A stretch of 64,000 nt of DNA from Flavobacteriales bacterium (GTDB lineage: Bacteria; Bacteroidota; Bacteroidia; CAIKAF01). Where the stretch lies: positions 375,511-439,510 of the forward strand of contig JANWKT010000007.1 in NCBI GenBank assembly GCA_025451235.1, in the 5' to 3' direction. Within the stretch, counting starts at the first letter, position 1. The number at the start of each line of letters is the position of its first letter. Under the pieces are notes generated by a model. The model saw nothing but the letters and a program-made list of their open reading frames with translations. It was not told the DNA's origin and searched no databases. The position numbers were made by a program, and so were the translations under genes. Below, piece after piece: positions 3,363 to 41,341 of the stretch.

Positions 3363-3382
3363 CCTGCCTGCCGGCAGGCAGG
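3363..3382. repeat. 20-bp palindrome, copy 1 of 2
   Basis: CCTGCCTGCCGGCAGGCAGG is a perfect palindrome. An identical copy lies at 38316-38335. Here it stands between the hairpin at 3326-3359 and sequence continuing AAGAAAGGGC, as if inserted into another repeat. When translated it yields peptides such as PACRQAG, which mark spurious frames. Confidence 0.85.
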
Positions 3383-4894: not shown

Positions 4895-4908
4895 AAATTG
4901 CCCTTTGG

Positions 4909-4997
4909 TTCTCGATACGGGTTGTGTTCTCGTTGCCCTTCCAGTCTATATAGCCAAGGCAGAGCTACTTGAATTGACAACCCTACTCGAACCGACA
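4909..4997 (+). repeat. dispersed repeat copy A (inverted relative to copy B), nested
   Basis: Left arm TTCTCGATAC (4909-4918), stem GGGTTGT (4919-4925) with ACAACCC (4977-4983), right arm TACTCGAACCGACA (4984-4997). The 51-nt loop itself contains a degenerate pair of arms (TTCTCGTTG from about 4927 and CTACTTGAATTGACA at about 4965-4979), as if one element had inserted in the loop of another. It stands 3 bp from the stop codon of the GIY-YIG gene. Arms match copies B (5341) and C (41307) while the stem sequence differs. Confidence 0.7.
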
Positions 4998-5000
4998 AGG

Positions 5001-5312
5001 TCAATTTTTTTTATTTTTTCGTTTAGAAAAATCTTTTTTTGAAAGTAATGGTAATAGTTCCAACTCTCCCTTGATCAATGCCTCTTTTTTCTTTCGACTC
5101 CATTTTTTTAAACGTTTTTCAACCATGATGGCATCCATAGGTCCTTTTATTTTCTCCTGGTAAAGAAGTTTTACGGGAAGTCGTTTTGCTGTATAACAGT
5201 TAGGATCAATGGCATCTTCATGCTCTTTCAAACGTCGAGGAACATTGTTGGTAACACCCGTATAATAGGTATTATCAGCGCAAAGGAGCATATAAACAAA
5301 TAGGGACCTCAT
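5001..5312 (-). CDS. GIY-YIG family nuclease
   Basis: 103 residues from ATG 5312; a TTG at 5339 would add nine residues. The start VYMLLCADNTYYTGVTNN is the GIY-YIG core (first strand VYMLL, then YYTG in place of YIG). It is followed by RRLKEHE (the conserved Arg of the helix), YTAKRLPVKLLYQE and VEKRLKKWSRKKKEALI (catalytic Glu, then basic helix). The length fits the stand-alone UPF0213/YhbQ-like group, single-domain putative endonucleases. The gene occupies exactly the interval 4998-5340 between two inverted copies of a repeat, so it may travel with them or act on them; that link is inference. Confidence 0.85.
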   Translation of the reverse strand: MRSLFVYMLLCADNTYYTGVTNNVPRRLKEHEDAIDPNCYTAKRLPVKLLYQEKIKGPMDAIMVEKRLKKWSRKKKEALIKGELELLPLLSKKDFSKRKNKKN

Positions 5313-5340
5313 CCAATAAAAATAAGGATTTTTGAGCAAA

Positions 5341-5397
5341 TGTCAGTTCGAGTAGATTTTTATCCGACCGATAGGAGGATAAAAATCGTATCGAGAA
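5341..5397 (-). repeat. dispersed repeat copy B
   Basis: On the plus strand: TGTCAGTTCGAGTAG (5341-5355), stem ATTTTTATCC (5356-5365), 11-nt loop, GGATAAAAAT (5377-5386), then CGTATCGAGAA (5387-5397). Arms are the reverse complement of copy A; the perfect 10-bp stem is unrelated in sequence to A's. The next bases CTA (5398-5400) are the stop codon of the VWA gene. Confidence 0.75.
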
Positions 5398-6792
5398 CTA
5401 GATTTGCGAAACCAACACAAATTTTCCTTCTTTGATCATGTAGACCTGCTTGCCCACTTTGATCTCTTCCCCTTCATTCATCTTCATTAAGTTCATCAGA
5501 TCGTTTTCCATGGTGTGTACAGATCCTCCGCTTACACGGGCCAGGTCCATATACTGGGTGTTGATCCCATAATAATTTCCACAGATCACTACACGTACCG
5601 GTTTTTTTACATCGGCTATCATTGAATAATCACGCATGTTCGCCCAGTTATCCGCAATGAGAATAATTTCTTTACAATTCGGATTGGTTTTGATCCCATC
5701 CAATAAGGCTTCCACATCATTCTCCGGTGCATCTCCTCCTCCCCCATTTCTCATGGCTTTCATCATTACCTGGGTGATGCTATTCAGACTTGCATCTTCA
5801 GAATGATAGATCCCTCCGGTTTTACCGGTTTCTTTTGTTTTGTCTTTTTTGGTGTCACCATCATTAAAACATACCACATGCTTGATCCGTTTTAAATTGG
5901 TTTCTAATGCCAACCATTTTAAGATCTGTTGGGTATAGGTGCCCATACTTCCGGTAACATCGATCACCAACATGACCTCGTCCCATTTATTCCGGGTGAG
6001 AACAGAGTAAATAGTACTGTCTTGTCGCATGGTATAATTCTCCGTATAACTCCCTGAAGAGCCTTTGCCCTTCACCCTTGAATCGGTACTTTTATAATCC
6101 CCATTGATGAATACAGAATCTACTTCTCCTATTTGTACTACCCGTGGTTTGATCACCACCTCGGTTACCATTTCCCTGTTCCAGATCCCTTTCTTTTTAT
6201 AGGTGATCCCTTTTTCTCTTTTGGCTTTGGATACCGGTAAATAATACCGCTTTTTTCTTTCCTTATAAATGGTATCGTAAATGGGGATCTTTACATGGGT
6301 CACCATGTCTTCAATTTTATCGATCTCCGATTTTCTTTCGTAAACAGTGGGCATTTCCACCGCAGTGATCAGGAATCCATGAAAATAGGTTTTAGCGGTC
6401 TCTACATCTTTTGCTCCAGTTTGTGCTATTACTTTCCACTCAATAAAACTACTTTCGAAAATAGAAGGCATTAACTTTTTTAAACTTTCAAGCCGGTTTT
6501 TGTTGAGCTCCGGTTGATCGAAACTTTCATCGGTACGAAAAGTGGTATAGATCAACTCCACTTTGATCACCATACGGAGGGTTGGATCAAGGTCTTTGAA
6601 AAGCGCATAAGGATTTAATATGCTATCGCTGGCAAAGGGCATTTTAAGGATGACCTTATCCTTAAAATCCTGTGCTGGATATTTGGCTACATAGGTGGGT
6701 TTGCTGGTATAGATATAGTCGATACTCACATTTTGTGAGAAGACCAGGCCTGTGAGAAGGCAACAGAGGGTAGATATCATTACTTTCTTCAT
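5398..6792 (-). CDS. secreted von Willebrand factor A domain protein
   Basis: 464 residues with signal peptide MKKVMISTLCCLLTGLVFSQ. Residues about 20-265 are unrecognised. From about 270 there is a VWA fold: VMLVIDVTGSMGTY carries the MIDAS start (DxTxS in place of DxSxS), GGGGDAPENDVEALLDGI the second loop, and IILIADNWANMRD the third strand. It should bind a divalent cation and act in adhesion or scaffolding in the periplasm or at the surface. The stop codon touches repeat copy B, so the repeat may have reshaped the C-terminus, although the ending VLVSQI looks normal. It is transcribed away from the lipoprotein gene at 7114 across a 321-bp spacer. Confidence 0.75.
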   Translation of the reverse strand: MKKVMISTLCCLLTGLVFSQNVSIDYIYTSKPTYVAKYPAQDFKDKVILKMPFASDSILNPYALFKDLDPTLRMVIKVELIYTTFRTDESFDQPELNKNRLESLKKLMPSIFESSFIEWKVIAQTGAKDVETAKTYFHGFLITAVEMPTVYERKSEIDKIEDMVTHVKIPIYDTIYKERKKRYYLPVSKAKREKGITYKKKGIWNREMVTEVVIKPRVVQIGEVDSVFINGDYKSTDSRVKGKGSSGSYTENYTMRQDSTIYSVLTRNKWDEVMLVIDVTGSMGTYTQQILKWLALETNLKRIKHVVCFNDGDTKKDKTKETGKTGGIYHSEDASLNSITQVMMKAMRNGGGGDAPENDVEALLDGIKTNPNCKEIILIADNWANMRDYSMIADVKKPVRVVICGNYYGINTQYMDLARVSGGSVHTMENDLMNLMKMNEGEEIKVGKQVYMIKEGKFVLVSQI

Positions 6793-38315: not shown

Positions 38316-38335
38316 CCTGCCTGCCGGCAGGCAGG
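38316..38335. repeat. 20-bp palindrome, copy 2 of 2
   Basis: CCTGCCTGCCGGCAGGCAGG, identical to 3363-3382. It interrupts the right arm of the hairpin at 38240-38345, so it was probably inserted after that hairpin formed. Confidence 0.85.
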
Positions 38336-41205: not shown

Positions 41206-41306
41206 CTGCTTGTTTTATTGTCAAATTAGTTTTTGATAAGATAATTATTTTTTCAAAAAAAATGAAAACAGATATGCGCCAGGGCGGGCATCCTTTTTTG
41301 CCTTTA

Positions 41307-41341
41307 TCAGTTCGAGTAGCGGCCATAGCCGCGTATCGAGA
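41307..41341 (-). repeat. dispersed repeat copy C, near the RAYT gene
   Basis: TCAGTTCGAGTAG (41307-41319), short stem CGGC-CATA-GCCG (41320-41331), CGTATCGAGA (41332-41341). Arms match copies A and B; the core differs again and is again self-complementary. Confidence 0.75.

Follow-up and report, generated by a model that had tools for sequence, protein, structure and literature searches.

Small single-domain GIY-YIG proteins of the UPF0213/COG2827 kind are usually annotated as plain predicted endonucleases; to our knowledge they are common and have no accepted role. Similarly, we know of no driver for some common REP-like palindromes. The nearest precedent for the hairpin-associated genes described here is the REP/REPIN system with its enzyme TnpA-REP (RAYT), a Y1 HUH transposase. 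Both comprise short, dispersed, imperfect palindromes that often occur with a small dedicated nuclease gene. However, the REP/RAYT enzyme is an HUH nuclease, whereas the enzyme here is a GIY-YIG nuclease, and the GTAG tag found 5' of the REP hairpin is not conserved here. Unlike in REP/RAYT, the conserved part is a GAG/CGA motif inside the stem, and the Y1 genes of the genomes studied lack the hairpins. In the REPs of E. coli, a mismatch is conserved inside the stem (PMC8266576). GTAG- and CGTC-tagged palindromes have been catalogued as REP-like elements, sorted by end tag, from many phyla including Bacteroidetes, and no mention of a GIY-YIG gene was found in that catalogue (PMC3733652).

The nearest precedent for a second, tRNA-associated set of genes comes from fungal mitochondria, in which mobile ORFs (mORFs) consist of a duplicated gene end beside a LAGLIDADG or GIY-YIG gene (PMC3630166). 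As in the tRNA set, a free-standing endonuclease ORF, of the GIY-YIG type in one case, supplies a copy of the end of its target gene; that gene stays intact, and its original end is left over. The tRNA set differs in being bacterial, in having a unit of about 360 bp and a tRNA gene as target, and in carrying a variable palindrome at the broken junction. In the open-access literature, a scope that excludes most subscription journals and bioRxiv preprints, we found no earlier account that connects bacterial GIY-YIG genes with REP-like hairpins or with tRNA duplications, and priority is thus not certain.

A hairpin-bounded nuclease gene

The DNA analyzed here, referred to as the window, is a stretch of 64,000 nucleotides from a Flavobacteriales bacterium. 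It contains the following features.

4908..5398, minus strand: the whole inferred mobile unit, a GIY-YIG gene between inverted hairpin repeats, delimited from the sequence and by analogy with the ends of loci L206 and L207
4908..4997, minus strand: repeat copy A, outer copy, from GTTCTCGATACG (4908-4919) to CTACTCGAACCGACA (4983-4997), core GGGTTGT/ACAACCC
4926..4979, minus strand: inner, more diverged copy in the loop of A, recognized from an arm with two mismatches at 4965-4976 and by direct reading
5001..5312, minus strand: GIY-YIG single-domain endonuclease, 103 aa from the ATG at 5312, Pfam PF01541 (E 7e-14)
5341..5398, plus strand: repeat copy B, from TGTCAGTTCGAGTAG (5341-5355) to CGTATCGAGAAC (5387-5398), core ATTTTTATCC ... 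GGATAAAAAT
41306..41341, plus strand: repeat copy C, solitary, from ATCAGTTCGAGTAG (41306-41319) to CGTATCGAGA (41332-41341), core CGGC/GCCG

The open frame of the nuclease spans 5001-5339 on the minus strand, with a TTG start at 5339 and 112 codons, and the ATG at 5312 is the likely start codon of the 103-aa protein. By sequence, the protein belongs to the same family as the UPF0213/COG2827 proteins, and its solved relatives in the PDB are the UPF0213 proteins 1ywl and 1zg2. In the alignment it retains every column that is invariant in the family (Tyr, Tyr-x-Gly, Arg, His, and Glu), and its catalytic domain is intact, as in free-standing GIY-YIG homing or mobile ORFs. The gene falls within one nuclease clade of 47, no member of which has a tRNA beside it. 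Elsewhere in the same genome (contig C25, L003:1431-1846), a GIY-YIG gene from another branch of the hairpin clade lies between 32-bp direct repeats AGTGCTTCGCACCTCCGGCTCCCAGCTGGAGC, a repeat type that differs from that of the window.

Copies A, B, and C share the arms TGTCAGTTCGAGTAG / CGTATCGAGAAC, which enclose self-complementary cores. A first-pass annotation of the sequence had described A and B as inverted copies bounding the nuclease gene, with cores that differ at each locus and still pair with themselves and with A apparently nested; the arm coordinates, the reading of the three cores, and the position of the inner copy (4926-4979) within the loop of the outer one bear this out. The arms that it quoted are present, except that the right arm of A is actually CTACTCGAACCGACA, with one mismatch to the quoted arm, and that C lacks the final GAAC. 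The DNA folding z-scores against shuffles are -4.7 for B and -4.2 for C, and a weak -1.9 for A. The unit is about 490 bp long. Like classical IS elements and MITEs, it has terminal inverted repeats, formed by its outermost 12 bp (GTTCTCGATACG / CGTATCGAGAAC), but no target-site duplication was found outside 4908/5398. The last base of B also belongs to the stop codon of the neighboring minus-strand gene (5398-6792). In its own genome the repeat is low-copy, being represented by A, B, C, and one more copy on another contig. Given the older-looking copy inside the loop of A, new arms may have been placed around old hairpins.

Hairpins and the nuclease clade across genomes

We searched 295 genomes of the class with the pattern CAGTTCGAGT-(0-60)-TATCGAGA and found the window-type repeat in 35 of them, at up to 47 copies each, while the reversed-pattern control yielded 0. 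Class-wide, the repeat is thus a many-copy dispersed imperfect palindrome, as are REPs. In 45 distinct cores, the mean stem was 6.1 bp compared with 2.2 bp in shuffled cores (Fisher P 1e-40, related copies not being independent). P values here and below are indicative only, as related copies and sequences are not independent, although the contrasts are large. Among 212 distinct copies, both the cores and the outer stems show Watson-Crick covariation: the paired core positions use all four Watson-Crick types, with pairing in 52-79% of the copies, above every shuffle, and the outer arms covary as AGTTC/GAACT, ACTTC/GAAGT, and ACATC/GATGT. The stem lengths and the covariation bear out the earlier suggestion that structure is kept while the core letters change, and together with the reversed-pattern control they rule out chance palindromes.

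The window-type repeat is one form of a broader family of hairpins, written X-GAG-(core)-CGA-X', whose stems covary. Around related GIY-YIG genes, it takes the form X-GAG-(short loop)-CGA-X', as in CCCTGAGCTTGTCGAAGGG and CAGTTCGAGCTTGTCGAGAACTG. One sample held 25 different 5-bp stems, and a pyrimidine preceded GAG in 92 of 92 cases. Selection by GAGC[CT]TGTCGA only, blind to the stem, gave 91 distinct flanks. Counted outward from GAG, the third stem position was paired in 96% of them (shuffle maximum 43%, four pair types) and the fourth in 87% (shuffle maximum 49%, three pair types). Tandem sheared G-A pairs usually occur where a pyrimidine-GA-purine faces GA, and the GAG/CGA internal motif possibly forms such pairs; in window-type arms, the folding program favors TCGA:TCGA pairing plus a bulge over G-A pairs. 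Before the core, the window copies read GAGTAG. Class-wide the tag varies: the base after GAGT is mostly A or G (GAGTA, GAGTG) and in some cases T (GAGTT). A GTAG-like tag is absent from the short-loop hairpins. Nested hairpins were seen in the G254 copies, at L268 and L291, and in window copy A, and here the window-type core can itself be X-GAG-NNN-CGA-X'; these look as if arms had been added around older units.

To relate the hairpins to the nuclease, 80 loci in named genomes were chosen by protein similarity alone, through a profile scan of genome contigs that used a closer alignment, a broad 20-row alignment being too diverse. The loci are mostly from Bacteroidota and also from Nitrospinota, Spirochaetales, Ignavibacteria, Delongbacteria, Eremiobacterota, and a gammaproteobacterial MAG. 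A GAG/CGA hairpin lies within 400 bp of the gene in 64 of the 80 loci and on both sides in 40. Hairpin density is 1.36 per kb near the genes and 0.047 beyond 900 bp, a difference of about 29-fold, whereas five control trinucleotide pairs together gave 0.044 near and 0.022 far. Likewise, hairpins accompany 18 of the 20 class members that were selected with a protein profile, some of which had been included in earlier samples. The window's nuclease clade is present in 22 of 35 repeat-positive genomes versus 26 of 260 repeat-negative ones (Fisher P 1.3e-11). Within repeat-positive genomes, the window-type repeat lies beside 12 of 21 clade genes and beside none of 32 other small GIY-YIG genes (P 1e-6). 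Overall, this nuclease clade is found in company with this class of hairpin, which keeps its pairing and the GAG/CGA motif while most of its other letters vary. The first-pass annotation had suggested checking whether GIY-YIG genes are enriched next to the repeats, and genes of the window's clade are strongly linked to the hairpins, both across genomes and within repeat-positive ones. Looked at across genomes, the repeats are neither devoid of structural conservation nor detached from GIY-YIG genes, a combination that would have refuted the first-pass annotation.

The association has exceptions. Thirteen of the 35 genomes with the window-type repeat have no strong clade member. Genomes G054 and G032 contain 230 and 144 short-loop GAG/CGA hairpins, respectively, and neither has a gene of the window's nuclease clade; a search of both for a free GIY-YIG gene or a clear Y1 transposase found none. 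In all these genomes one has to suppose that the driver was lost, that its relatives have diverged, or that something else drives the hairpins. Because these two genomes are hairpin-rich without the gene, the number of short-loop hairpins does not correlate cleanly with GIY-YIG genes across 60 genomes. In G032, the hairpins often form inverted pairs about 46 bp apart. Such genomes favor the main rival reading, in which REP-like repeats are spread by something else and the GIY-YIG gene is a homing parasite that uses them, as it does tRNA genes, as safe structured targets. However, another driver was not found: none of the 26 REP-type (Y1) transposase loci from the genome set has the hairpins, which rules out the repeats as REPs of the host's Y1 transposases, and hairpin-rich G054 has 0 Y1 matches. 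Moreover, hairpin subtype follows nuclease clade, and the presence of the repeat follows that of the nuclease. We regard the parasite reading as rather unlikely.

Hairpin-bounded units occur at unrelated sites of one genome. In G140, the genes at L206 and L207 are 89% identical and lie on different contigs, and the alignment of the two loci begins where the upstream hairpin starts and stops where the downstream hairpin ends, with unrelated sequence outside. As the match runs from hairpin to hairpin and not beyond, the unit moves, in agreement with the earlier proposal of a folded mobile unit with the gene inside. Gene copies flanked by window-type repeats, direct or inverted, are also present in G094, G176, G254, and G287, and several other units have direct repeats in place of terminal inverted repeats. 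Neither DNA nor protein searches revealed a clean empty/occupied pair at the window locus or at two others, where the neighbors were not syntenic in relatives. Hairpins that fold well and sit at gene ends could in principle act at the RNA level, as terminators, stability elements, or autoregulators of the gene's own transcript, instead of as mobile ends. We consider this highly improbable, since copies also occur in either orientation and well away from GIY-YIG genes, the unit boundaries of L206/L207 coincide with the hairpins, and an Rfam scan of 10 loci returned tRNAs only, with no known family at the hairpins.

A sister set in tRNA genes

The pattern is wider than the window, comprising both the GAG/CGA hairpin family and a sister set that targets tRNA genes. 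In a search of 60 relatives, a tRNA gene or a piece of one lies within 400 bp of 43 of 103 small GIY-YIG genes, and the two are nearly always on the same strand. Typically, a complete tRNA with its terminator comes first, then the GIY-YIG gene, and last a broken duplicate of the tRNA, as at L005 (Asp), L008 (Met), L093 (Asn), and L083 (His); the order is sometimes reversed, as at L070 and L085. Two of these tRNA-type loci, L005 and L008 (C25:151786 and C7:93688), are in the window's own genome. The break often falls in or beside a tRNA loop, and a significant palindrome is present at the break in 17 of 31 detectable broken tRNA copies; the remaining 14 yielded no significant palindrome, some having been missed by gap detection. 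The break palindromes vary by locus (TCCCGCACGTGCGGGA, CTGTCTGGCGACAGCCAGACAG, and CCCCGATAGCTATCGGGG) and have the same variable but self-complementary signature as the window repeats. A palindrome around CTGCCGGCAGGCAG occurs in the window at 3364-3381 and 38317-38334, with 0 expected by chance, and the tRNA-type loci L037 and L044 have a longer form of it as their junction plug.

In these loci, the tRNA is rebuilt and units grow in tandem. The target is restored by the carried duplicate in the tRNA set, while the window's hairpin set shows flanking hairpins only. L086 and L099 show a tRNA-type unit that has been copied, the two matching from the tRNA 3' end to the palindrome. L082 contains four tandem units at 404 bp and L197 eight at about 364 bp; in both arrays (L197:980-3755 of G176 C34 and L082:950-2509 of G013 C12), tRNA 3' pieces lie between the GIY-YIG genes. 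In five tRNA-type loci with a full tRNA, Rfam found the tRNA intact and contiguous, with no intron. A group I intron carrying a GIY-YIG ORF is ruled out, as Rfam finds only tRNAs in the 10 scanned loci and nothing interrupts the tRNA. Isotype and nuclease tree agree, with 21 changes compared with a shuffled mean of 36.5 and a shuffled minimum of 32.

The tRNA set bears on two of the competing readings. It shows the enzyme family settling in structured targets that it does not disperse, which is a point in favor of the homing parasite. Its tandem arrays fit unequal exchange, and repeat-flanked units in general could be moved or amplified by recombination, so that the nuclease might merely hitchhike between hairpins that recombine by host homologous recombination; it could then be a UPF0213-type repair enzyme that has been domesticated. 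Such passive carriage seems improbable to us, as it leaves unexplained why hairpins surround these genes in several phyla and are scarce in the wider flanks and why separate nuclease clades fit the tRNA isotype.

Proposed mechanism and significance

Taken together, these data indicate that the window unit is probably a miniature selfish homing or transposition unit: its nuclease would act at hairpins, and solitary hairpins would be non-autonomous derivatives of the unit. In this model, the nuclease would recognize the folded hairpin, as a cruciform or a single strand, with its conserved GAG/CGA internal motif and would cut in or beside the hairpin, near its loop. Repair from or into another hairpin site would then copy the unit, resulting in homing or transposition-like spread, and solitary hairpins such as C would be non-autonomous or relic copies. 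The carried piece would restore the target on one side, and the palindrome would mark the other. The self-complementary core may serve as a variable plug that makes the occupied site unlike the empty target and yet still foldable. The tRNA set could be the same machine with another hairpin target: the nuclease would cut the loop of a tRNA gene, the carried half would rebuild an intact tRNA, and a broken copy would be left, often plugged by a new palindrome.

More tentatively, and with less than even confidence, we suggest that these elements form a new mobile-element class, present in several phyla, in which the nuclease reads the fold of the DNA and not its sequence. One branch would disperse GAG/CGA hairpins as a non-HUH counterpart of REPIN/RAYT, its sister branch would enter the hairpin loops of tRNA genes and rebuild the tRNA, and both would leave a varying palindromic plug.

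The findings join small GIY-YIG proteins that lacked an accepted role with REP-like palindromes that lacked a known driver, and they supply many genomes with an enzyme and a substrate that can be tested together. In bacteria, the tRNA branch would be the equivalent of the fungal mitochondrial mobile ORFs and is possibly among the smallest protein-coding elements that target tRNA genes. If true, a fold-reading, sequence-blind nuclease would also be a useful tool. Overall, our analysis suggests that very small elements able to copy themselves form a class that has received little notice.
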